The position numbers and the translations under genes are program-made. DNA of 42,703 nucleotides from the NCBI GenBank assembly GCA_021200775.1, contig JAJQGB010000001.1, positions 1 through 42,703 of the forward strand, read 5' to 3'. How positions within the stretch are numbered: the first letter of the stretch is position 1; every line of letters starts with the position of its first letter. Origin of the DNA: Oscillospiraceae bacterium. Lineage in GTDB: Bacteria > Bacillota > Clostridia > Oscillospirales > Ruminococcaceae. This document shows, one piece after another, positions 1-12,662 of this stretch. Below the pieces are notes generated by a model, which was not told the DNA's origin, ran no database searches, and saw only the letters and a program-made list of their open reading frames with translations.

Positions 1-52
1 TGAACGTGCCTTCAAAACTCGTGTCAAGACGGAATTTACCGGGTTTGGACAT
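1..52 (-). CDS. Start of a third operon gene, cut by the window edge
   Basis: An ATG at 52 on the minus strand is preceded by AAAGGAGG at 61-68 with good spacing, and the frame stays open to the edge of the window. The visible residues are MSKPGKFRLDTSFEGTF. The start lies 23 bases after the stop of the 993-residue gene, so it belongs to the same transcript. I do not recognise the protein from 17 residues. Its position makes it a likely third component of the helicase operon. Confidence 0.6.
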   Translation of the reverse strand, partial: MSKPGKFRLDTSFEGTF

Positions 53-75
53 GGGTGTGCCTCCTTTGCAGTCTT

Positions 76-3057
76 TCATGTTTTCATTTTTCTCAGAAGC
101 AAAAGCTCCCGAATTTCTGCTATGTGCGTCTGTGTAAACCAAAGCTTTTCTTGCATAAAGTTTATTTCTACTGGTGACTGTTTTTCAATATCAGCTCTTG
201 ATAATCCCGAAATCTTGTTCATAAGGATGTCAGCGCCATATTGACGCATACCCCTGAATTTTGCGGCACAGTTAGGACATAAGCACAAATACATTGGGCT
301 AAGTTCTTTTTCTGGCTCTTTTTCGATTTGACAGGCTTCAACATTATCACAAGCGCAATGACACATTTGACAAGCGACTTTTGAACTTCTATAAGAGCGG
401 TATATATGCTTAACATACGCCTGAACCTCATCGACAGGCTTACTAACACGTTCACGTCTCCATACTTCTCTGTATTCCACGGGAGATGCTTCGCTTAATA
501 GTTTTTCTGAATGTCTATGCAAGGTGTCCCAGTTTGGCTTATCTGATTCCGGAAAATCAAAGTCTTCTTCAAAATCTTGTTCAATGACAGAGCTTTCTTC
601 TTTGCTCTCCGCAGAATAAAGGTGAACAATTTTGTCAAGCTCAGATGCAGATATTCCGTATCGTCTTTGTGATTCTTGCTCAAAGCTCTCAGAAGTCTGT
701 TTGCTTTCTACAATGTCGGTTGTTGTGTCTACAGGCGATTCTTGATTCTCACTGTTTGTTGGAATTGCCATTGACGATTCGACAGGCTTAAAGCCTAATA
801 TGCTGTAAAGCTTTGATTTTGGATTGACATTTCCATATAGTTCGGGGTTCAGCTCAAGACAAGTTATTTCATCCGCTGACACAAGCTTGTTATCTTTTGT
901 GTACAACCATTTAGGTCGTTTCCTTTGCTTTTGTATTACATCGTAGTAGTCAGGCAAATCTGGATTCAATTCTAAAAGGATTCGAGCATACTCTGGCTCT
1001 ATTTCATGTGACCGAGGATCTTGTGAGATTAGAAACCTGTTCCTATTGATGAATTTAAAAATAAACAATGACTTCTCTGCCGAATTACTGCTTGAAGGTT
1101 TGTATTGAATGAAATCAAGAACTTCGCAAAGACATTTTATAGTAAAGTCCTCTTGAAACGGAAGCACGTCGCTATACCCATCTGATAAATTATCACTTAT
1201 TCCTGCCATTTTTAGTAAGTGGATGAAATAAGATAATTCATCACTGCTAAGATTGTCTCGATAAAAGTCAATATCAACATAAGTGTAATCTCTGACACCA
1301 TAAAAATAACTTTCAATACTTCCATCATGACAGGAAGAAAAATATACATCATTTATTCTACTTGTATTGCCATCTCCTAAAATGATGTATTTACTATGAC
1401 CAATTGTACGACATCTAATGTATGCGGAATTGATAAGCAACGAACTGATTTCCCAGTCGTGTGCAACGTGTTGCTTAGCGTAAAATAAAAGTTCTTTTAA
1501 ATCTCTTATGTGTTCCGTAACCGACGGAATACTCTTGTTGTTGATAATTATTTTAGACTTTAGGTATGTAAAATAATCACTTTCCTTATGCTCAGTTCTT
1601 TTTATTGACTCACACATATGCCCCGGAACTTTTTGTAGTCCTAAAGTATTTATAAAAAAGCCCTTGCATTCTTTAAATATCTTCTCGTCAACTACATTGA
1701 CATCAGCATTTGCTACACGGACATCAGATGGGGTATAAACATTTAGTTCTGTACTTCCTGCTGACTTGTATAGCTGTACAAATTTGCCACTTGAGGTCTT
1801 AATGAAATCTACGGATGATATATTATGCCCTGCATTTTTGTACGAGAACAAGATTTTTTCTCTCATACACTTCAAATTGTAGAATCGAACGAGCCACTCA
1901 TCGGTGCGACTAGAAAGAAAATCCTTGTTATTCCTAAGAGGTATCCTTAGACTGCTTGGCGTAAGAACTTTTATATTAAGACTTCCTGTTATAAATTGAT
2001 TTGCATTTTTATAATGTTCAAGCTCTAACGAAGGAAGTGCCAACCAATGATAACTCTTTCCATCCGAAAATAATTCTGATAACACCTCGTCAGTAAATAC
2101 CTCAGAAAACTCAGCATCTTCAAAAATCTTTGCAGTCTTCGAAGATGTGTATCCTCCTTCTTTGCACGGCAAATAATCTTCTTTTGAAAAAAGCTCATAC
2201 ATTTTGTCATACATAACTTTAAAGAGAGAATAGCCTTTGAACACGCTTTCATCAACTGGAAGGACATTAATCAAGCTGTAGTTTAAGATTCCTTGTTCTC
2301 TTAATTCTCGAACACTGTCACAAAGCAATTCTGCTGTTTGTTCAGCAAGCTTCTTGTTGTATTCATCATTAGCAAGAACTTTACAATCTTCTGAAATATG
2401 GTACAAACCGCTGACGATGAAGTTCAGTCTGCTCCTTGTATTCGTTGGGAAACTAACAAAGATATTTGAATTCCTTACTTCCTTAAATTCATACTTACCA
2501 TCGTCAGTATTGCTGACTCTAAAAGCAACATCAACAGGAGACTGATTTCCTGCTTGTTGCGAAAAAACGAGATATGAATCATCTTTACTGGTTTCGACAT
2601 CACTCATAGTGCCATTGAAATGTCGAATCACTGAGCAATGGTCATTAACTTGCTGCCTGTCAACCGCAAATATTTTTTCAATCATCAAGGAATCCGTATT
2701 AATCTTATAACTTACCGCTTTCAGGCTCTTTGCAAATAGAAGCGAATTAATATCCAAATTCTGCAATTCATTTGAAAGCTCGCTTTTCAAATCCTCAATA
2801 TTTTCACGATGCGAATCTTTCAGTAAAGCTCCATAAGGTACAAGTTGCCTTTTTGCACTGTTCCGTACAAGGTTCTGATATTTTATACCAACAATGCGCT
2901 TGATGCCAGAAGTCTTATCTTTGCTTCCTTGAATATAATTATTGAATATATCCTGATTATCATACACTACTGTGAAACCATCGTTATTCAGAAAGAAAAA
3001 TATGATGTTAGCACCTTCACGGTCCGCCTTCAGGAAACTTTCGTAAATACAATTCAT
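76..3057 (-). CDS. Large sacsin-like protein with degenerate ATPase start and C-terminal zinc finger
   Basis: A 993-residue protein whose ATG follows GGAGGT by a few bases, so the start is well supported. Residues 1 to about 45 resemble the middle of a Bergerat (HSP90/sacsin-type) ATPase: YESFLKADREGAN, then GFTVVYDNQDIF, where active relatives have ELLQNADDAGA followed by a GF.V.N motif. The expected Asn of the N box is Lys, and the usual GIGFKS loop reads VGIKYQN, so ATP binding may be lost. The long middle shows no motif I can name; an acidic, Glu/Ser-rich linker lies around 780-850. The C-terminus has CQMC (896-899) and CLCPNC (925-930), an HNH-like zinc finger in which the catalytic His positions are not His. 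The gene is co-transcribed with the helicase (26-base gap). The family assignment rests on memory of related sequences and is tentative. Confidence 0.5.
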   Translation of the reverse strand: MNCIYESFLKADREGANIIFFFLNNDGFTVVYDNQDIFNNYIQGSKDKTSGIKRIVGIKYQNLVRNSAKRQLVPYGALLKDSHRENIEDLKSELSNELQNLDINSLLFAKSLKAVSYKINTDSLMIEKIFAVDRQQVNDHCSVIRHFNGTMSDVETSKDDSYLVFSQQAGNQSPVDVAFRVSNTDDGKYEFKEVRNSNIFVSFPTNTRSRLNFIVSGLYHISEDCKVLANDEYNKKLAEQTAELLCDSVRELREQGILNYSLINVLPVDESVFKGYSLFKVMYDKMYELFSKEDYLPCKEGGYTSSKTAKIFEDAEFSEVFTDEVLSELFSDGKSYHWLALPSLELEHYKNANQFITGSLNIKVLTPSSLRIPLRNNKDFLSSRTDEWLVRFYNLKCMREKILFSYKNAGHNISSVDFIKTSSGKFVQLYKSAGSTELNVYTPSDVRVANADVNVVDEKIFKECKGFFINTLGLQKVPGHMCESIKRTEHKESDYFTYLKSKIIINNKSIPSVTEHIRDLKELLFYAKQHVAHDWEISSLLINSAYIRCRTIGHSKYIILGDGNTSRINDVYFSSCHDGSIESYFYGVRDYTYVDIDFYRDNLSSDELSYFIHLLKMAGISDNLSDGYSDVLPFQEDFTIKCLCEVLDFIQYKPSSSNSAEKSLFIFKFINRNRFLISQDPRSHEIEPEYARILLELNPDLPDYYDVIQKQRKRPKWLYTKDNKLVSADEITCLELNPELYGNVNPKSKLYSILGFKPVESSMAIPTNSENQESPVDTTTDIVESKQTSESFEQESQRRYGISASELDKIVHLYSAESKEESSVIEQDFEEDFDFPESDKPNWDTLHRHSEKLLSEASPVEYREVWRRERVSKPVDEVQAYVKHIYRSYRSSKVACQMCHCACDNVEACQIEKEPEKELSPMYLCLCPNCAAKFRGMRQYGADILMNKISGLSRADIEKQSPVEINFMQEKLWFTQTHIAEIRELLLLRKMKT

Positions 3058-3083
3058 AACCCTACCTCCAAATCATTTTAATA

Positions 3084-6000
3084 TCAATTCCCAATCTCCA
3101 AGATGCCGTTTGCAATCGCTGTGGTAAGAATATCTGTTGTTGCGCTCTTGTCGTTGATTTCTTTGACCTTTTCCTCAAAGTTACTTGTGGCAGATTCAAG
3201 TTGGCTCAAATACATTCTTTTAAGTTTGTCGTCTGTCGTATCCTTGATTTTTTGCTCCAAAGACCTGTGCCTTGCCATAAAGTTGTTAGTCAGGCTCTCG
3301 ATTTTGTATTTTGATAGATTCTGAGCGTCTTTCAGAGCTTCACTCTTTGCACTTGTCCAAAGCGCAATGTGCTTTTGCTCAAGCGAATCCCAGTCGGAGG
3401 GCTGTACTTTCAACTTGTTTGTGCAGTTCTGAGCTTCCTGAAGAATATCCGAAAGCTCTTTTGCAATGGAGTCATCATCACATACAACAACTAATTTGAA
3501 ATGGGGATTCAGACCGACATAGCTCCAAGCATAAACGGAGAAGTAGTATTTGCCAACAGGAAGGTTGTCGCTTGTGTATTGCAAATGGATATATGATTGC
3601 TCATTTGTCTTGTAGTAAGTCGCTGCTTGTTTTGCCAACGGGTGCATTGCCGTGATAAAGAAAGCATCCTTATTATGCTCGGCGGCATCGGAATCAAAAG
3701 TGATTGCGTGATACTGATTGCTACCCTTGAGGTATATATCCCAGCTTCTTCTGACGGCATTCTTGCTTTCCGGAAGCTTTTTAAAATCCTCACGCAAAAC
3801 AGCTCTGGCTTCCGCAGAAAGTCTTAACTGCTTAACTGCGCCCTCGCCGGAGAAAGAAGAATTCTGCCCGGTTCTCTCAGACAGATATTGTTCAATCATT
3901 ATCTGAAGATAGCTTTGAGTCAACCACGGGTTTTCTGCGTTTCTTATCTCCTGCGCAGTGGTGTATTCTGACAAATCGAAGCCGAATAGCTCCTTTTCTT
4001 CTTCCTCTAACTTATTGAGTTCTTGAATGTTACGGACTTCGTTATCCGTCATCTGTTCAATTTTGGTTCTGCGTTCCTGTTCGGTAAGGCTTGAGTCTGT
4101 AGCTATCTGGTCTAATTGAGTAGCAATATCTCCGAGTATCTTTTCACACTCGCCAATGCTGTTTTCAAACACACCGATTCTCATAAGGCATCGATAATAA
4201 ATATCCGCATCAACAGTTCCCTCGGTTATCATGTTGTAGATGCTGACAGTCTCACTTTGCTGACCTCGTCTGTCGATACGACCTATGCGCTGTTCAATTC
4301 GCATCGGGTTCCAAGGCAGGTCATAATTTATCATCATATCGCAGAACTGATAGTCGAGACCTTCTGAGCCTACTTCCGTAAAGAGCAGAATGTCAATAGC
4401 ATCTTTATCTTCTTTCGGAAGCTGGAACCTGTCACGCAATTCACAGCGAATGTCATCCTTTACACTGCCGTCAATTTGTGCGACACGCAGTCCTGTTGCA
4501 GCTAACTTATTGCAAAGATAGCTGAGGGTGTATCTGAAAGTGCTGAAGATTATAATCTTGTTGTTTTCCTGCTTCTGTTTCTCTTGAACCGCTGACATCA
4601 TAAGGTCAAACTTGGGATCATCATCAGGGAGATTGTCTGCCAACTGAAGAAGTCTCTCAGACAGCTCCTTAAGTGTGCCGTAATCTTTACTGTCAAACGA
4701 AAGTGCTTCATACTCGGTATCCGGATCATCGTCTATCTGCGCAAAGCGACGGTCTACTATGTCCCTTATGTGAGGAGCAAGACCGAAAATACAGCTTGCG
4801 GCTTGTCTTTTGATTGTGGACATCATAAACGGCACGGAACGAGCGGAGCCGTGCAGATGCAACAACGCATTATGTTCAAATCTCAGCAATTCGTCATGAA
4901 GCTCCTGCTGTTCGGGCGTAAAATTCACAGAAAGGGTATAGGGACGACGAATGCAGAAATCCTGAATATCCTTGCGGCGTGTTCGGTTAAGCATAGTGTT
5001 GAAGCTATTGAGACTTTCAACTTTGGATATAAGCTCTACACGTTCTTCTCTTGAGATTTCTTCCTGACGCAAAGTCTTGACCGCGGAAATATATGCGGGA
5101 TTGGTAGCAATGACATTTTCGCCCCACTGAGTTTCCAAAAGCTTTTCCAATTCATCCAAGGCGTTTTGTTGCCAGTTATCTCCGGCTTTACGCATGATTT
5201 TTGAACAGCGGGAAATATTAGCGTTCGGGCGTGACATCATGCTGAATGTGGCTTTGTCTATGACAACATCCGGACGAAGAACATTCAAAAGTGTATACAA
5301 GTCATCATCACTTGTCTGAAGCGGTGTAGCTGTCAGCATAACAACAGCATCCGCATGATCGCAGAAATACTTTACACACTTATACTCGTATGCTTTCTCT
5401 TTTTCCATGCTACCGTTGCGGATATGGTGAGCCTCATCCACAATGACGAGATCAAAATGCGGTGCAGGGTCGAGGTCTTTTAAACCGAATGATTTTGATT
5501 TTTTGCTATGCTCGCCGTTGTATGTACGACCGTCAAGAACAGAGTATGGAATTATAGCTTTGTTGTATCTTATTGACCATTCTCCGTCCCTGTCTGTATC
5601 AGATATAATCTGTCTCAGTGTTGCGCCATCCACGGGAATGAAATCTTCATCAAATCGTTTCATTTCAAGCTCCCATTTTCTTTCCGCAACAAGAGGCTTC
5701 GGACATATGATTAAAACTTTCTCAAGGTCATGTCTCGCCTGTAGCTCTTTAATAATCAGACCGGCTTCGATGGTCTTTCCAACGCCTACGCTATCGGCAA
5801 TAAGAATTCTCGGCTCATCCGAATGTATGAGTTTAAGTGCAGGTCTGAACTGATATGGAACAAAGTCGATTCTCGCAGAATTAAGAGAGTACAGACTTCT
5901 CCCTGACGGATTATTTATCTGGTAAGCGGTCAGAGTGCTTCTGAATGTATTAACATCAACCCAATTATAAGAGACCTCATTTATAAACGGTGCGATCTGA

Positions 6001-6680
6001 CCTGAGTAAAACGTCTTGATGGAACCGTCAACAAAGACGTTATATTTTTTTGTACCACCAACGTCAGAAACGGACATAACAATTCCTTTGACGTTAGGAT
6101 TGCCGACAAGATACACTATACTATTTTCAGCAATATCAATGTCATTGTTACTTACAATAGTAACTTCGGTATCTGCGTTTTTGCCATCTGTTTGGTCGTT
6201 ACTGATACTTGCAAAATCAACTGTAGAGGGAGACTTTACATCGTCTATCATACGGTCAATTTCGTTCAGGAGTTTTTCGTCGCAACCCAACTGGGTCAGG
6301 AATTCATGAAGCGTACTTAAATCAGATATAATGGTATCCTTGCCGGGCAAATCTGCACTACAATGTGCCCAATTATTGCGGACTCCCATCATAGCCCGGA
6401 TAACTTCTCTTTCATGCGTAGGCAGATAAGCTACGGTTCTGAGAGTATACCAAGACTTATCCGCAATACGAAGCAGAGCCGCCAAGTCAAAATCAGACAG
6501 CTTAGTAAATCCGTTTTCAGTTGCCAACTCACGCTGATGATAACTGAGGCTTCCGATGACACTGTCTTCCCACCAGTCAGGTGAAGTACGACTCAAAAAC
6601 TTTTCCAACCACTGAGCCAATTCAGATGCCGATGTGTGCAGATATGTGTTCATCCTGCTTACTATCTGATTCGAGTTCAT
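3084..6680 (-). CDS. HEPN-SNF2 helicase (RapA-like DEAH ATPase)
   Basis: A protein of about 1198 residues. I chose the ATG at 6680 because GAAGGAG stands 7-8 bases upstream; an in-frame ATG at 6698 overlaps that site and is less likely. Residues ~1-140 look like a Swt1-type HEPN domain with RNNWAH near 101-106. A small beta-rich segment follows at ~185-235, comparable to the Tudor-like region of RapA. The SNF2 motor comes next: Walker A GVGKTIEAG (~299), DEAHH (~415), LTATPLQ (~449), then in lobe 2 TEVGSEGLDYQF and QRIGRIDRRGQ. A Glu/Lys-rich helical tail follows. All motor residues look intact, so it should be an active nucleic-acid translocase. It is the first gene of the leftward operon. 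The function, probably antiphage defence, is inferred from the mobile context and partners. Confidence 0.85.
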   Translation of the reverse strand: MNSNQIVSRMNTYLHTSASELAQWLEKFLSRTSPDWWEDSVIGSLSYHQRELATENGFTKLSDFDLAALLRIADKSWYTLRTVAYLPTHEREVIRAMMGVRNNWAHCSADLPGKDTIISDLSTLHEFLTQLGCDEKLLNEIDRMIDDVKSPSTVDFASISNDQTDGKNADTEVTIVSNNDIDIAENSIVYLVGNPNVKGIVMSVSDVGGTKKYNVFVDGSIKTFYSGQIAPFINEVSYNWVDVNTFRSTLTAYQINNPSGRSLYSLNSARIDFVPYQFRPALKLIHSDEPRILIADSVGVGKTIEAGLIIKELQARHDLEKVLIICPKPLVAERKWELEMKRFDEDFIPVDGATLRQIISDTDRDGEWSIRYNKAIIPYSVLDGRTYNGEHSKKSKSFGLKDLDPAPHFDLVIVDEAHHIRNGSMEKEKAYEYKCVKYFCDHADAVVMLTATPLQTSDDDLYTLLNVLRPDVVIDKATFSMMSRPNANISRCSKIMRKAGDNWQQNALDELEKLLETQWGENVIATNPAYISAVKTLRQEEISREERVELISKVESLNSFNTMLNRTRRKDIQDFCIRRPYTLSVNFTPEQQELHDELLRFEHNALLHLHGSARSVPFMMSTIKRQAASCIFGLAPHIRDIVDRRFAQIDDDPDTEYEALSFDSKDYGTLKELSERLLQLADNLPDDDPKFDLMMSAVQEKQKQENNKIIIFSTFRYTLSYLCNKLAATGLRVAQIDGSVKDDIRCELRDRFQLPKEDKDAIDILLFTEVGSEGLDYQFCDMMINYDLPWNPMRIEQRIGRIDRRGQQSETVSIYNMITEGTVDADIYYRCLMRIGVFENSIGECEKILGDIATQLDQIATDSSLTEQERRTKIEQMTDNEVRNIQELNKLEEEEKELFGFDLSEYTTAQEIRNAENPWLTQSYLQIMIEQYLSERTGQNSSFSGEGAVKQLRLSAEARAVLREDFKKLPESKNAVRRSWDIYLKGSNQYHAITFDSDAAEHNKDAFFITAMHPLAKQAATYYKTNEQSYIHLQYTSDNLPVGKYYFSVYAWSYVGLNPHFKLVVVCDDDSIAKELSDILQEAQNCTNKLKVQPSDWDSLEQKHIALWTSAKSEALKDAQNLSKYKIESLTNNFMARHRSLEQKIKDTTDDKLKRMYLSQLESATSNFEEKVKEINDKSATTDILTTAIANGILEIGN

Positions 6681-6747
6681 ATTCAAACTCCTTCTCATTT
6701 ATCTTTTAAGGCAAAGCATTTTAAATCGATACAATTACCCATTAAAT

Positions 6748-6776
6748 ATTATAAGACTTTTTGTTGAAAAACGCAA
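6748..6776 (-). promoter_or_regulatory. Promoter of the helicase operon
   Basis: On the minus strand TTGCGT (6771-6776) and TATAAT (6748-6753) are separated by 17 bases, about 70 bases upstream of the helicase start. The -10 is perfect and the -35 is weak, which suggests regulated or modest expression. Confidence 0.6.
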
Positions 6777-6809
6777 GATACTAAGCTGTGTCTTTTGCGA
6801 ATAATATAC

Positions 6810-6877
6810 AGGGTTTGGGACACTCCCAACAAGTAAAAATCGCCGAGTGTGGCAACACCGGCTGTGCTTGCTATTCT
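6810..6877. repeat. Left arm of an inverted repeat flanking the xre gene
   Basis: The inner 19 bases (6859-6877, CGGCTGTGCTTGCTATTCT) recur exactly in inverted orientation at 7502-7520. Outside them both arms carry GGGTTTGGG followed by a TCCCAA hairpin and a GTGTG tract, so the similarity spans about 60-70 bases with gaps. Confidence 0.85.
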
Positions 6878-6894
6878 CAAAAACTCATATAAGA

Positions 6895-6926
6895 ACAGGC
6901 AAGGTAACTTGAACTATCTTGCCTGT
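6895..6926 (-). terminator. Hairpin terminator after the xre gene
   Basis: ACAGGCAAG (6895-6903) pairs with CTTGCCTGT (6918-6926), just past the stop of the repressor gene. The minus-strand continuation is TCTTATAT, so the T tract is weak. Confidence 0.55.
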
Positions 6927-6931
6927 CAGTT

Positions 6932-7348
6932 TTATTCGTTATCCTTCCTGTATTTCTTTGGTGTATACTTTTCTTTATTCTTTTCTTTCGCAATCCAGTA
7001 AGCTTCCTGCAAAGCTCGCATCACAGCATCCTTTTCTTCCTCTTGCATTTCTCCTCCGGCAAAAAGTGCAGATATATCGGCGACCAATTCTTCCGCTTGC
7101 CTTGCACCCTTGTAGCCGTATGTCTGCTGTGCCTGAAGGACAAATTCCTCATCTTCGGACAGGAGATAGTTGACATCGCATCCTAAAGCATCTGCCAATT
7201 TTGCATAAACTGCCCGCTGTTTCGGATAGCGTCCGTCAACTTCGTAGTTACGAATCGTCCTCAAGGAAAGTCCGCAGAGCTCTCCCAATTCCGTCTGGGA
7301 CATCTTCTTTTCTTTCCTGAGCTTTCTAACCTTTTCGCCAAACTTCAT
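6932..7348 (-). CDS. Xre-family HTH repressor
   Basis: A 138-residue protein. Residues 1-65 form a typical lambda-repressor-like helix-turn-helix: SQTELGELCGLSLRTIRNYE gives the recognition helices, followed by LADALGCDVNYLL. The C-terminal ~70 residues are charged and of unknown fold. It is transcribed away from the recombinase, from a consensus promoter at 7453-7481. Its own promoter region and the recombinase promoter overlap around TAGGYA half-sites, so it probably represses both. Such repressors commonly control excision genes in mobile elements. The gene lies between two inverted repeats, which is unusual. Confidence 0.85.
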   Translation of the reverse strand: MKFGEKVRKLRKEKKMSQTELGELCGLSLRTIRNYEVDGRYPKQRAVYAKLADALGCDVNYLLSEDEEFVLQAQQTYGYKGARQAEELVADISALFAGGEMQEEEKDAVMRALQEAYWIAKEKNKEKYTPKKYRKDNE

Positions 7349-7386
7349 ATTGAGAACCTCACTCGGAAAAATATTTTCCTATTTTT

Positions 7387-7451
7387 TGCCTAATCCTATT
7401 GACACCGGTACTTAATTTGCTTATAATAAGAGTAGGCAATTATTCTACCTA
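7387..7451. promoter_or_regulatory. Probable Xre operator cluster
   Basis: Four related 6-mers lie around the two promoters: TGCCTA (7387-7392), ATCCTA (7393-7398), TAGGCA (7433-7438) and TACCTA (7446-7451). The last two form an inverted pair with a 7-base gap between the -10 boxes of the opposing promoters. Binding by the Xre protein is inference. Confidence 0.5.
7399..7427 (+). promoter_or_regulatory. Consensus promoter for the recombinase operon
   Basis: TTGACA (7399-7404), a 17-base spacer and TATAAT (7422-7427) form a perfect sigma-A promoter pointing to the TnpW-like gene and recombinase. The transcript would cross the opposing xre promoter and the right inverted-repeat arm. Confidence 0.8.
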
Positions 7452-7452
7452 T

Positions 7453-7481
7453 ATTATAAGAAAAACTTGCCGATTTGTCAA
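7453..7481 (-). promoter_or_regulatory. Consensus promoter for the xre gene
   Basis: On the minus strand TTGACA (7476-7481), 17 bases and TATAAT (7453-7458) form a second perfect promoter. It faces the rightward one, and the two transcripts overlap. Confidence 0.8.
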
Positions 7482-7501
7482 TGGGTTTTAAGGGAACTTG
7501 A

Positions 7502-7560
7502 AGAATAGCAAGCACAGCCGATGTATATACACACTGCATTTTGGGAAATCCCCAAACCCT
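7502..7560. repeat. Right arm of the inverted repeat flanking the xre gene
   Basis: AGAATAGCAAGCACAGCCG at 7502-7520 is the exact reverse complement of 6859-6877. CCCAAACCCT at 7551-7560 matches the outer end of the left arm, and TTTGGGAAATCCCCAAA forms a local hairpin. It sits in the leader of the TnpW-like gene. Confidence 0.85.
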
Positions 7561-7586
7561 TTGTCACTCTAAAAAGGAAGGTGGAT

Positions 7587-7787
7587 ATGCAAGAGAGAAA
7601 CAATAATATTCGGGTGGACGAAAGCGGCACACGTTACGCTATCGTTCCGATGTGGCAGGAGCTTCCTAAGATTACAGTGCGTCTGGAATCCGGAAACACT
7701 ACCTATCATTTCACCGGAAGCTTCGATGGAAGATGCACTCTTCCCGAAAAAGTTATGAAGCTGATGGATGAAGAAAAGAGCGTGTAA
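7587..7787 (+). CDS. Small TnpW-like transposon protein
   Basis: A 66-residue protein. The start at 7587 follows AAGGAAGGTGG; an upstream in-frame ATG at 7521 lies in the repeat arm and lacks a ribosome site. The core ITVRLESGNTTYHFTGSF, followed by EKVMKLM, resembles the short TnpW-type proteins encoded beside large serine recombinases of Tn4451-like elements. Their role is not established. It is co-transcribed with the recombinase. The assignment rests mainly on this pattern and on position. Confidence 0.5.
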   Translation: MQERNNNIRVDESGTRYAIVPMWQELPKITVRLESGNTTYHFTGSFDGRCTLPEKVMKLMDEEKSV

Positions 7788-9483
<1,696 letters not shown>

Positions 9484-9496
<13 letters not shown>

Positions 9497-9514
9497 ACCG
9501 TTCACGCTGTTCTC
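9484..9514. terminator. Hairpin at the recombinase 3' end
   Basis: A 14-bp perfect stem (9484-9497 with 9501-9514) has a CCG loop. On the minus strand it is followed by TTTTGATT, and on the plus strand by GGAAAAT, so it would work best for leftward transcripts. Confidence 0.6.
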
Positions 9515-9549
9515 GGAAAATATTCAAGACCTGTCTTATGACGGGTGAG

Positions 9550-9670
9550 CTTGTCAAGGGGAGCTGGCTGTGCCGCAGGCACAGACTGAGAGGTGTGCGA
9601 GCCCGCAGAGTGAGCACGTCGGTGCAGGCGGCTTCAGCCGCCGCAGACGACAAAATGCTTCACTTTTGCC
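9550..9670. repeat. Palindromic intergenic repeat, single arm with extension
   Basis: One arm (TGTCAAGGGGAGCTGGC, then ...GACTGAGAGGTG) is followed by the variable extension GTGCGAGCCCGCAGAGTGAGC and GGCGGCTTCAGCCGCC. It is the first host-type repeat right of the mobile block. Confidence 0.75.
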
Positions 9671-9682
9671 AATAAGTTATTC

Positions 9683-9988
9683 CTATATTCCATACTTATC
9701 TTTCAAGATATTATCAACTTCCTCCGGAGTATATCCCTTTCCGTCCTTGAAAGAGTCAAAGCCTTTCTGAATCTCTGCGCTGATTTCCTCCTCGGTCATT
9801 CCGCCGATTGCGGTCGGTTTCTTTTCGGGAAGACGGAGCTCGAAGGGCAAGCCGTCGTGAAGGACAATCTGGCTGTAGAGCATCTGGATGGCGCCGGACG
9901 GAGTAATTCCAAGCTTCGCCAGGATTCCCTCAGCGTTCTCTTTGAGCTCGGTATCTATTCTTGCATAAACAGCAGTCGTGTTTGCCAT
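9683..9988 (-). CDS. Orphan DinJ/RelB-family antitoxin
   Basis: A 101-residue protein. I chose the ATG at 9988 because AAAGGAG at 9998-10004 is 9 bases away; the ATG at 9997 touches that site. Residues 1-45 form a ribbon-helix-helix (NTTAVYARIDTELKENAEGI, then GITPSGAIQMLYSQIV), followed by the LPFELRLPE motif shared by DinJ proteins that wrap a RelE/YafQ toxin. No toxin gene lies downstream: the next 190 bases hold only a repeat. It may neutralise a toxin elsewhere or be a remnant. Confidence 0.8.
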   Translation of the reverse strand: MANTTAVYARIDTELKENAEGILAKLGITPSGAIQMLYSQIVLHDGLPFELRLPEKKPTAIGGMTEEEISAEIQKGFDSFKDGKGYTPEEVDNILKDKYGI

Positions 9989-10015
9989 GCGAAACATCTC
10001 CTTTTCGTTTTCCCT

Positions 10016-10059
10016 ATTATATCACACTTTGCAAGCGTTTGCAAGCGTTTGCTTGCAAT
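10016..10059 (-). promoter_or_regulatory. Promoter with embedded repeat operator of the DinJ-like gene
   Basis: On the minus strand TTGCAA (10039-10044) and TATAAT (10016-10021) are 17 bases apart. TTGCAAGCG is repeated in tandem from 10030 and ends in GCTTGC, giving overlapping palindromes across the -35. This is the layout expected for antitoxin autorepression. Confidence 0.7.
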
Positions 10060-10060
10060 T

Positions 10061-10945
10061 TTAATCCGTCTTCATCCTCCCCGTCAAGTCAAAGACCGTT
10101 GTCGTCTTGTCTTCCGGGTGTTCCCTCGGGGAGACTTTTACCTCTTCGGAATTAAGAGTCCGGAGTTCGCCGGCGGAGGTTCTCACTACCAGGCGGGCAT
10201 TACGGTCGATGCGGACGGCTTCGGCGAGATAGGGTTCGTCGCCGTTAAGAGGGTGAACCTCGACATTGTAGCCCAGAATAACCGAGAGCCGGGTGTAGTC
10301 ATAGAGGAAGTCCCTGCCGTGGATTTGATTAAGTCGGTTATTGATGGATTCTAAGATGTAGTCCTTCATAATGGTGTTGATGACGGGGTCCTGTTTCTTC
10401 TGGAAAACGGTCGTCGTGTTGCGGGCAAACTCCTCCGGGAAGCCGCCTTCGGGAGGATACATATTCACGCCGATTCCGATGACATAGAAACGCTCGCCGT
10501 TTACGTCGACGCCCGACTCTGTCAGGATTCCGGAAACTTTTTTGCCGCCGCTGTAAATATCGTTTACCCATTTGATTCCAACATTCCTGCCGCTTATATC
10601 ATGGATGGCGTCCGCCACCGCACAGGCGACAGCCGGTGTGATGAGCTGGGTTTCCTCAACCGTGAGGTAAGGGCAGATTGGCGGGACTTCGTCGAGCTTC
10701 GAGGCGTTCTCTCTTGCGCCGGGACGGATGAGCACCGAAAGGTAAATTCCCTCCGGAGGGCTGTAAAAGCTTCTGCCTTTACTCCCTTTCCCGGCAGTCT
10801 GGCTCTTTGCGGCGACGACAGTTCCCGATTTTGCGCCTTCCTTCCCCGCCTGCATCAGCAGGTCGTTCGTGGACGTGACTTCGTTGTAGCTGTAAATGAG
10901 AAATCCGTTCTGATGAATAAGCCCGCACTTGGGTCTCTTTAGCAT
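10061..10945 (-). CDS. birA: Biotin--[acetyl-CoA carboxylase] ligase, without HTH domain
   Basis: A 294-residue protein that attaches biotin to biotin-dependent carboxylases. The biotinyl-AMP loop appears as KGSKGRSFYSPPEG and the ATP-site motif as IKWVNDIYSGGKKVSGIL. The catalytic domain begins almost at the N-terminus (SYNEVTSTND), so the DNA-binding repressor domain of E. coli BirA is absent: a group I enzyme. A C-terminal SH3-like part follows at ~245-280. The ATG at 10945 is preceded by AGAGGTG. It stands alone on the minus strand, with the DinJ-like promoter starting at its stop codon. I see no odd residues. Confidence 0.9.
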   Translation of the reverse strand: MLKRPKCGLIHQNGFLIYSYNEVTSTNDLLMQAGKEGAKSGTVVAAKSQTAGKGSKGRSFYSPPEGIYLSVLIRPGARENASKLDEVPPICPYLTVEETQLITPAVACAVADAIHDISGRNVGIKWVNDIYSGGKKVSGILTESGVDVNGERFYVIGIGVNMYPPEGGFPEEFARNTTTVFQKKQDPVINTIMKDYILESINNRLNQIHGRDFLYDYTRLSVILGYNVEVHPLNGDEPYLAEAVRIDRNARLVVRTSAGELRTLNSEEVKVSPREHPEDKTTTVFDLTGRMKTD

Positions 10946-10999
10946 GGTAGCACCTCTACTGGATGTATATTTTGGAGTGGATATTACGTTTTGTCATAT

Positions 11000-11165
11000 G
11001 GAAACCCCTCAGTCAGCCACTTCGTGGCTGCCAGCTCCCCTTTCAGGGGAGCCTATAACTGCTTCTATCAAAGCGTTTTAAAGTAGGAAAAAAGCCTCCC
11101 CTGAAACGGGGAGACAGTTTGCTTCGCAAACCGGGACCGCCGCCGAAGGCGGTGGTGGAGGGGTT

Positions 11166-11167
<2 letters not shown>
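11000..11167. repeat. Palindromic intergenic repeat, arms A and B
   Basis: The arm starting GGAAACCCCTCAGTCAGCC (11000) is followed by a ~50-base spacer and an arm ending GGTGGTGGAGGGGTTTC (11167). It ends on the guaB stop codon, so it is likely to act as the guaB terminator. Confidence 0.85.

Positions 11168-12662
<1,495 letters not shown>

Follow-up and report, generated by a model that had tools for sequence, protein, structure and literature searches.

An HEPN–SNF2 helicase and a sacsin-like protein as a candidate two-gene anti-phage module on a mobile element of an Oscillospiraceae bacterium

In an Oscillospiraceae bacterium (Ruminococcaceae; GenBank assembly GCA_021200775.1, 17 contigs, 2.06 Mb), the gene for an SNF2 helicase carrying a HEPN domain is followed directly by the gene for a sacsin-like protein, and the same two genes recur side by side far beyond the genus. 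The pair is understood here as an unnamed two-gene anti-phage module working as proposed below, with a probability of roughly 0.6. This understanding starts from what was observed, namely the pairing, the gene order, the motifs, the correlated divergence of the two proteins, the defence genes at some loci and the exchange of the sacsin-like gene. A defence function of this candidate is very probable and it is highly probable that the two proteins work together directly, although both grades are judgements and were not computed.

The window, meaning the whole stretch of 42,703 nucleotides that was analysed, is the start of contig C11 (JAJQGB010000001.1, positions 1 to 42,703). At its left end lies a minus-strand operon composed of the helicase gene (3084..6680; 1198 residues from the ATG at 6680 to the stop at 3084, or 1204 residues from an alternative in-frame ATG at 6698), the sacsin/TmtA-like gene (76..3057; 993 residues) and the first 52 bases of a third gene (1..52), the first codons of which are MSKPGKFRLDTSFEGTF. 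An earlier reading of the sequence, referred to below as the original prediction, had described a third gene starting at 52, gaps of 26 and 23 bases and strong ribosome sites, all of which are as stated: 26 bases separate the helicase and sacsin-like genes and 23 bases separate the latter from the third gene, AAGGAG precedes the helicase ATG at 6680, and GGAGG lies ahead of each of the other two genes.

Conservation of the gene pair

Genome contigs were scanned by helicase alignment, and the counts given below for 80 loci refer to the best 80 of 504 relatives (loci are designated L, genomes G and contigs C). A sacsin-like open reading frame (ORF) lies directly 3' of the helicase gene in 70 of the 71 loci with at least 700 bases downstream, with gaps of 50 bp or less in 62 of the 70 pairs; the sole exception with sufficient room, L120, carries a sacsin-like fragment 5' of the helicase. 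Across all 80 loci, a sacsin-like ORF is found in 74 and exceeds 900 residues in 64, some copies being cut or broken and that of L123 being a 91-residue remnant. Among the nine loci with less room, the sacsin start is visible in L067, L079, L085 and L086, and no start occurs in the 0–681 bases available in L083, L099, L113, L119 and L124. In contrast, none of 33 distant SNF2 helicases from viral contigs that served as a control has a sacsin-like gene 3' (three weak hits are all upstream); these loci, several of them near-identical by position and score, were found with other patterns than the 80, and their 700 bases of downstream room were counted for 25 and read from the locus table for the other eight. 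Co-occurrence across genomes had been set beforehand as the test that could refute the candidate defence system of the original prediction, and the pairing was upheld.

The two proteins also diverge together. Their identity matrices are correlated (Spearman 0.655, n=58), a value that none of 999 permutations reaches (best 0.302), and the mean identities of 0.27 for the sacsin-like protein versus 0.47 for the helicase mark the former as the faster-evolving partner.

According to record titles, carriers belong to Clostridia, Spirochaetes, Desulfobacterales, Alpha- and Gammaproteobacteria, Planctomycetes, Cloacimonadota, Poribacteria and others, many of them metagenome-assembled genomes, and named carriers include Rhodobacteraceae, Vibrio, Pseudomonas and the archaeon Methanoculleus. 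Plasmid copies occur in Ensifer, two Rhizobium and Methanomethylovorans, the pair being present in all four records opened (the three best matches and one archaeal) of 449 that match the helicase. In one plasmid copy, traA and mobC lie a few kb upstream of the pair and do not belong to it; in a further plasmid region, retrieved by the sacsin search, a Qat system adjoins a sacsin-like gene and the helicase is absent. Six viral contigs hold close members of the helicase family: the pair is present in four, a fifth has a piece of the sacsin-like gene in the opposite orientation, and the sixth is cut. At the level of the class, the helicase family was detected in one of 391 genomes (E 1e-60), namely the bacterium's own, with at most two candidates per genome among the matches listed.

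The HEPN–SNF2 helicase

The original prediction of a HEPN-fused SNF2 helicase was borne out by Pfam, which assigns HEPN_Swt1 to ORF residues 24–136 (6291..6629, minus strand; 36.3 bits, cut-off 27.5), and SNF2-rel_dom and Helicase_C to residues 296–610 and 698–812 (4263..5813, minus strand). The window helicase contains the motifs GVGKT, DEAH and QRIGRIDR; among 79 helicases longer than 950 residues, GVGKT is found in 79, DEAH in 78 and QRxGRxxR in 78. A sequence search against solved structures gave RapA as the best match. Within the HEPN domain, RNNWAH (6363–6380, minus strand) agrees, as a sequence motif only, with the R-x4-6-H active site of HEPN ribonucleases (RNases). Of the 56 helicases in the set of 80 that exceed 1150 residues, 55 carry the R-x4-H motif, while 20 of the remaining 24 have no HEPN part, three have one (L068, split over two ORFs, and the cut copies L099 and L113) and one (L060) is cut and was not judged.

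Several side observations concern this protein. The helicase of the Faecalibacterium locus L068 (8010–11639) is encoded in two ORFs with the break inside the HEPN domain, and pglX of the same operon is likewise in two pieces with other genes between them. In the rhizobial plasmid copies (L041, L042 and L043), the pair has no HEPN domain and is preceded by a gene of 176–184 codons whose product looks like a sigma factor by eye; its interpretation as a split-off HEPN domain was rejected, as no family scored above the Pfam cut-off in the two of three copies scanned.

Defence genes beside the pair

The nearest same-strand genes within 600 bases comprise 57 genes at 46 loci (L046 and L047 excluded). 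As raw counts, the PADLOC matches listed, which cover the first 25 of 112 families, include PDC-S68 (5), PglZ (3), type III restriction enzyme (3) and PDC-S01 (2), and the Pfam matches listed, covering the first 25 of 66 families, include ResIII (8), HSDR_N (1) and AbiEii (1). Ordinary neighbours, such as polysaccharide export and hydrogenase genes, are found too. Nine hand-picked neighbours included three type III (L101, L121, L081) and three type I (L108, L057, L090) restriction genes and three without a match. The type III genes lie directly upstream of the pair, as does one recognized by resemblance in L103, and weaker type III scores were obtained in L049 and the near-identical L050 and L051; of the type I genes, that of L108 adjoins the pair on the upstream side, and those of L057 and L090 are separated from it by a few genes. 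The original prediction would have been refuted if the downstream genes had proved to be ordinary conjugation functions or a known defence system. It stands: restriction–modification (R-M) or BREX genes lie next to the pair at part of the loci and are not seen at many others, and the traA and mobC genes of one plasmid copy are outside the pair.

The PglZ query matches L061, L062 and L068. In Butyrivibrio sp. MC2013, the gene order is brxA-brxB-brxC-pglX-pglZ-helicase-sacsin-PDC-S68, and similar operons with extra genes between pglX and pglZ are present in Lachnospiraceae bacterium AC3007, where the stretch began inside brxC, and in Faecalibacterium prausnitzii CNCM I-4541, where brxB was unmatched. 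The BREX queries were derived from G002, in which the genes had been named by resemblance and order. A single BrxL query found no match in two of these three genomes and, in the third, one weak match (25 % identity, E 2e-5) to a contig other than that of the operon. According to PMC12839542, 76 % of type 1 BREX systems have BrxL; the main text of that report contains no occurrence of sacsin, GHKL, Hsp90 or RhuM. The operons in which the pair follows pglZ (L212–L217) are BREX type 1-like and possibly represent a BREX subtype. A PDC-S68-type gene (RecD-like, 1211–1290 residues when whole) was also noted after the sacsin-like gene in L048–L051, L061, L062, L070 and L170, in fragments in L048 and cut in L051 and L170, and may be a third component of the system.

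One alternative holds that the pair is a restriction arm, which requires a partner for self-marking modification or surveillance (type I or III R-M, or BREX) and replaces BrxL in BREX operons; the window copy would then be orphaned, or would act in trans with the type IV BREX operon on contig C12. The position after pglZ in three operons with no clear BrxL, the restriction genes directly or a few genes upstream at several loci, and the BrxP, PglZ and BrxL homologues of the own genome all favour it. However, at many loci, those of the window's genus included, no R-M or BREX gene stands beside the pair, and this explanation, together with its account of the window copy, is doubtful.

The sacsin-like protein and its ATP domain

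The 993-residue protein of the window matches no Pfam family above cut-off, and the PADLOC profile of TmtA scores 34.1 bits over residues 169–436. Other alleles of the same genus (L016 and L017) match Pfam SACS with 62.6 and 63.0 bits and have an intact GHKL domain. The original designation as sacsin-like is correct, but the label is weak for the window copy, the ATP site of which is lost; a zinc-type motif is present, as predicted. On the minus strand, a degenerate GHKL ATP-binding domain (2818..3057, residues 1–80) is followed by a putative Hsp90-middle- and GyrB-transducer-like part (1963..2817, residues 81–365) and, near the C terminus, by a zinc-binding-like motif, CQMC...LCPNC (268..372). 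Among 58 sacsin proteins, conservation is 98 % and 91 % for the two cysteines of the C-terminal C-x2-C and 93 % and 91 % for the Cys-Pro that follows; the whole pattern including the fourth cysteine is present in 39. An AlphaFold2 model of the window protein (mean predicted local distance difference test score, pLDDT, 79.1) retrieved nothing with Foldseek at E 0.001 or less, and no solved structure was matched by sequence at E 1 or less.

The GHKL region of the window allele spans 80 residues versus 171 in L046, about 40 N-terminal residues, the N box and the glycine-rich box being gone, so that the N and G boxes by which the GHKL family is recognized are missing here and intact in L016 and L017. 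Of 32 conserved ATP-domain residues, nine are kept and 23 lost, whereas 38 relatives keep 29–32. No in-frame upstream start restores the domain, the open frame comprising 998 residues versus 993 for the ORF.

Searches from the sacsin side detected Pfam sacsin-domain proteins above cut-off in seven of 398 genomes of the phylum, four of them in frames of approximately 1600–1900 residues, as in Tiamat-type proteins; at E 0.001 the number rises to 29 of 398, most of the rest lying in frames of approximately 585–670 residues, HtpG-like by size. The sacsin alignment matched six of 345 genomes of the order, the own genome included (E 0.001). Nine sacsin loci (seven from the SACS search, two from the alignment search) have no co-directional helicase of this family, one of them, G837, with 690 bases upstream and too little to judge. 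By eye, several of the nine adjoin type I or III R-M genes.

Exchange of sacsin alleles

The sacsin gene occurs in three of 30 genus relatives, in all three directly after a helicase 96–97 % identical to that of the window. The second gene varies much more: in G025, another species of the genus, it encodes a near-identical protein of 993 residues, while G002 (L016) and G001 (L017) have alleles of 1446 and 1214 residues, which share 44 % and 39 % identity with the window protein and 69 % with each other. Between the window and G025, 165 of 3615 bases differ in the helicase gene, 14 of 417 in the Xre gene and 3 of 2982 in the sacsin gene; in 250-base steps, identity is 0.892–0.996 through the helicase and 0.993–1.000 from approximately 3150 to the contig end. 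The disparity between the two genes and the step in identity show a separate recent exchange, by which the sacsin gene reached one or both elements as a cassette.

Compared with L016 and L017, the DNA similarity of the window ends at the sacsin start codon, continues as weaker islands inside the gene and returns to 95–100 % shortly before the start codon of the third gene. L016 and L017 themselves agree at 0.93–0.99 through the helicase, with one step of 0.88 at the junction, and at 0.94–1.00 in the early sacsin gene; the good match stops approximately 430 codons into the gene, beyond which identity drops to roughly 0.6 in a gapped alignment, except for a segment at 0.81–0.88. This change inside the gene, after the half encoding GHKL domain and transducer, may be read as replacement of the recognizing part. 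Despite the overall correlation, partner exchange is also apparent in L046 and L047, which are the G001 and G025 loci again (helicase 0.96, sacsin 0.36), and in L061 and L062 (0.87 and 0.49).

The loss of the ATP site raises the alternative that the window copy is a decaying passenger, whose sacsin allele has lost its ATPase and is merely carried by the element. The nine GHKL residues kept and the lack of an upstream start that would add the domain agree with this view. On the other hand, the loss is limited to the GHKL domain, for 42 of 49 conserved residues are kept elsewhere (35–49 in the 38 relatives); the ORF is intact in two species, between which it has recently spread; and the adjoining helicase is under purifying selection (window versus G025, nonsynonymous divergence dN 0.017, synonymous divergence dS 0.174). 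The sacsin gene itself, with three differences, is too young for a selection test. Decay of the window copy is rather unlikely.

The mobile element and the third gene

The serine recombinase and Xre regulator that the original prediction placed beside the operon were confirmed by Pfam. The Xre-family helix–turn–helix regulator (6932..7348, minus strand; HTH_3, 42.2 bits) lies upstream of the helicase gene and is followed on the plus strand by an 88-residue ORF without a family match (7521..7787) and the adjoining large serine recombinase (7791..9416; Resolvase, Recombinase, zinc ribbon and DUF4368). In the intergenic region between the Xre gene and the 88-residue ORF, a consensus scan found two divergent, perfect TTGACA-17-TATAAT sites (7399..7481, both directions), which are sigma-70-like. 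The right end of the element lies approximately at 9529..9566, where similarity to two relatives ends. Read outward, each end of the element shows ACCTGTCTTATG and then a run rich in G (window 9529–9566; L015, in reverse, ~13280; L017 ~10190); these ends are perhaps terminal inverted repeats.

The third gene was originally counted as part of the operon, which holds for its position, but it belongs to a shared module that also stands behind BREX operons. No further part of it was detected in the assembly. Its starting 55 bases also end contig C12 in the same direction, which indicates a collapsed repeat and not a junction, and a continuation of C11 into C12 was rejected for that reason. On C12 (L003), a type IV BREX operon of brxP, brxC, pglZ and brxL (1819–12441; BrxP 732, BrxL 630 and PglZ 88 bits) has the third gene at its end; in G002 and G020, too, this gene stands behind BREX genes, which were named by resemblance. 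The gene was accordingly rejected as a dedicated operon partner, its first bases being 94–100 % identical behind three sacsin alleles and BREX operons; in six loci, identity begins at its ATG or up to approximately 20 bases before. The Xre and recombinase genes were not found beside the BREX copies fetched. Two units, the pair-bearing element and a separate BREX locus, therefore have one tail in common.

The third-gene protein was matched in eight of 31 genus genomes (E 0.001), closely in G001, G025, G020 and G002 (a 34-residue end) and, in the other four, over approximately 70–90 C-terminal residues only (36–43 % identity); the own genome has no match because its contigs end inside the gene. 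It matched nothing on plasmids or in viral contigs. Its predicted model is poor (pLDDT 43.9), and two copies reach 23.7 and 20.4 bits with Pfam PriA_3primeBD, against a cut-off of 22.7. The C terminus is, in keeping, weakly similar to the PriA 3' DNA-binding domain, and the N terminus reads FDLTGDGKATFEDFFIWKQIL, which on visual inspection looks like a single dockerin/EF-hand repeat (L015 8015–9688, L017 7460–8938). In G025 and G020, the gene is followed by a RhuM protein and two small ORFs of 109 and 163–188 residues (L015 5939–8022, L019 7667–9728), while G001 has no RhuM; the RhuM copy of G025 matches PADLOC PDC-S05 with 558.7 bits.

Carriage on an element bears on a further alternative, in which the pair would serve element maintenance or addiction, with a HEPN toxin and a sacsin-like antidote. 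Motor domains and a 1000-residue partner are unlike known toxin–antitoxin pairs, and part of the loci lie inside R-M and BREX operons. Copies on plasmids and viral contigs are in line with such a role, and HEPN domains are common toxins (PMC3710099), yet addiction is improbable.

Comparison with known systems

Tiamat is a single-gene system. Its protein TmtA shares with the present family the sacsin-type GHKL N terminus, an intact genus relative scoring 204.6 bits over residues 17–650. The constant SNF2 neighbour and the zinc-type C-terminal motif set the family apart. The Tiamat profile, moreover, extends along only part of the protein (residues 169–436 in the window, and partially in the relative), and the sacsin-like gene is immediately preceded by a helicase gene, both in the window and its three genus relatives and in the wider helicase-chosen set. 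By profile span and partner, the pair is not Tiamat, although its sacsin-like member is Tiamat-related. It was also noted that in L055, L056, L060, L063, L066, L080 and L166 the same helicase family is accompanied by larger, TmtA-like partners of 1500–1593 residues; that of L066 matches TmtA with 490.3 bits.

Type 1 BREX with BrxL resembles the pair-bearing loci in that the pair follows pglZ in three operons, but the window has no pglZ, brxC or pglX beside the pair, and BrxC and PglZ are equally missing beside the pairs of the genus relatives. A 2008 study described R-M operons that combine GHKL ATPases with superfamily II (SFII) helicases and proposed a DNA-looping engine (Iyer et al. 2008, PMC2292703). 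These MORC/paraMORC operons likewise place a GHKL-S5 ATPase beside an SFII helicase, in some cases of the SWI2/SNF2 type, and a GhXhhpXXRhl motif is given for the S5 domain of MORC (PMC2292703); they differ in that the text excerpts of that paper mention neither HEPN nor a sacsin-type protein, and the present pair recurs also without R-M genes. HEPN–SNF2 and HEPN–GHKL fusions in R-M contexts were reported in 2013 (PMC3710099). The type 1 BREX-related system Hma combines HEPN, an SNF2 helicase and an ATPase in one operon, but its HEPN domain is on a DUF499 AAA+ ATPase next to a methylase core (PMC12839542), whereas in the pair HEPN is on the helicase and the ATPase is of the GHKL type. The Hma partners (adenine methylase and DUF499 ATPase) are not among the Pfam-scanned neighbouring genes of the window and its genus. 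The HEPN–SNF2/sacsin pair is described in no title or abstract opening covered by the search, subscription journals being mostly outside it.

In length and SNF2 core, the helicase is most similar to DrmD of DISARM, the best PADLOC library match (385.6 bits, residues 239–1158). Neither a HEPN domain nor a constant sacsin partner is known from DISARM. The NCBIfam model of DrmD scores 308.9 bits against a cut-off of 610, and no DrmB stands beside the helicase, DUF1998/MZB being absent from the scanned neighbours (DrmA and DrmC were not searched by name); the one DUF1998/MZB match of the genome is in a 1762-residue frame on contig C6. Because DrmD reaches half of its cut-off and the DUF1998/MZB match lies elsewhere, the pair was not filed as DISARM, in agreement with the original prediction that it falls outside DISARM and BREX. 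That the pair derives from an orphaned DISARM system is, for all the DrmD match, very improbable given the low score, the HEPN fusion, the sacsin partner and the remote DUF1998/MZB gene.

Proposed mechanism

The candidate module would consist of an SNF2 translocase of double-stranded DNA that carries a HEPN RNase, and a sacsin-type GHKL clamp. Candidate cues for the sacsin-like protein are foreign DNA, the processing of that DNA by an adjoining R-M or BREX system, and a phage protein. It would sense such a cue with its rapidly evolving middle and C-terminal regions and would then dock on the helicase. The helicase would translocate along the invading DNA, and ATP-driven closure of the GHKL clamp would link recognition to the freeing of the HEPN active site for RNA cleavage, which would stop phage or cell growth. 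By judgement and not by computation, HEPN is somewhat favoured as the effector, while the odds that the sacsin-like protein is the recognizing part are about even. In this genome, the module rides on the serine-recombinase element with a swapped allele that has no ATP site, and is either ATP-independent or defective.

Several points weigh against this interpretation. Members more distant than the best 80 of 504 may behave differently, and only one of the nine sacsin loci has an SNF2 helicase, on the opposite strand; sacsin-like proteins without the helicase argue against strict mutual dependence. The HEPN part is missing in 20 of 80 helicases and in the three rhizobial plasmid copies (one of them Pfam-scanned), and is therefore not essential to the helicase family. 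The defence-neighbour figures are raw counts. Since its allele has no ATP site, the window copy is unable to operate through ATP-driven clamping. Every step of the mechanism is inferred, and 'candidate' remains the right word for the module.

Implications

The pair can tentatively be viewed as a widespread immune unit that acts alone or is plugged into type I or III R-M and BREX systems as an interchangeable arm replacing BrxL, with the sacsin-like gene as the exchanged specificity cassette; the spread of alleles without an ATP site would then suggest that the clamp can signal without ATP. The pair unites the GHKL–helicase and HEPN–SNF2 themes in one recurrent unit, and it could account for those BREX operons where BrxL was not found. 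Human sacsin contains GHKL repeats and a HEPN domain in one protein (PMC3710099), and this combination is split over two genes here.

Prokaryotic sacsin-like proteins are involved in defence through Tiamat, the mechanism of which was listed as unknown in a 2023 survey (PMC10482375). The related family described here has a constant partner with a recognizable motor and, in most cases, an RNase domain, so that its mode of action is open to direct experiment. The genus in addition provides a natural allele series, in which one conserved helicase is combined with at least three sacsin alleles, one of them without an ATP site, and which bears on what the sacsin-like protein recognizes.

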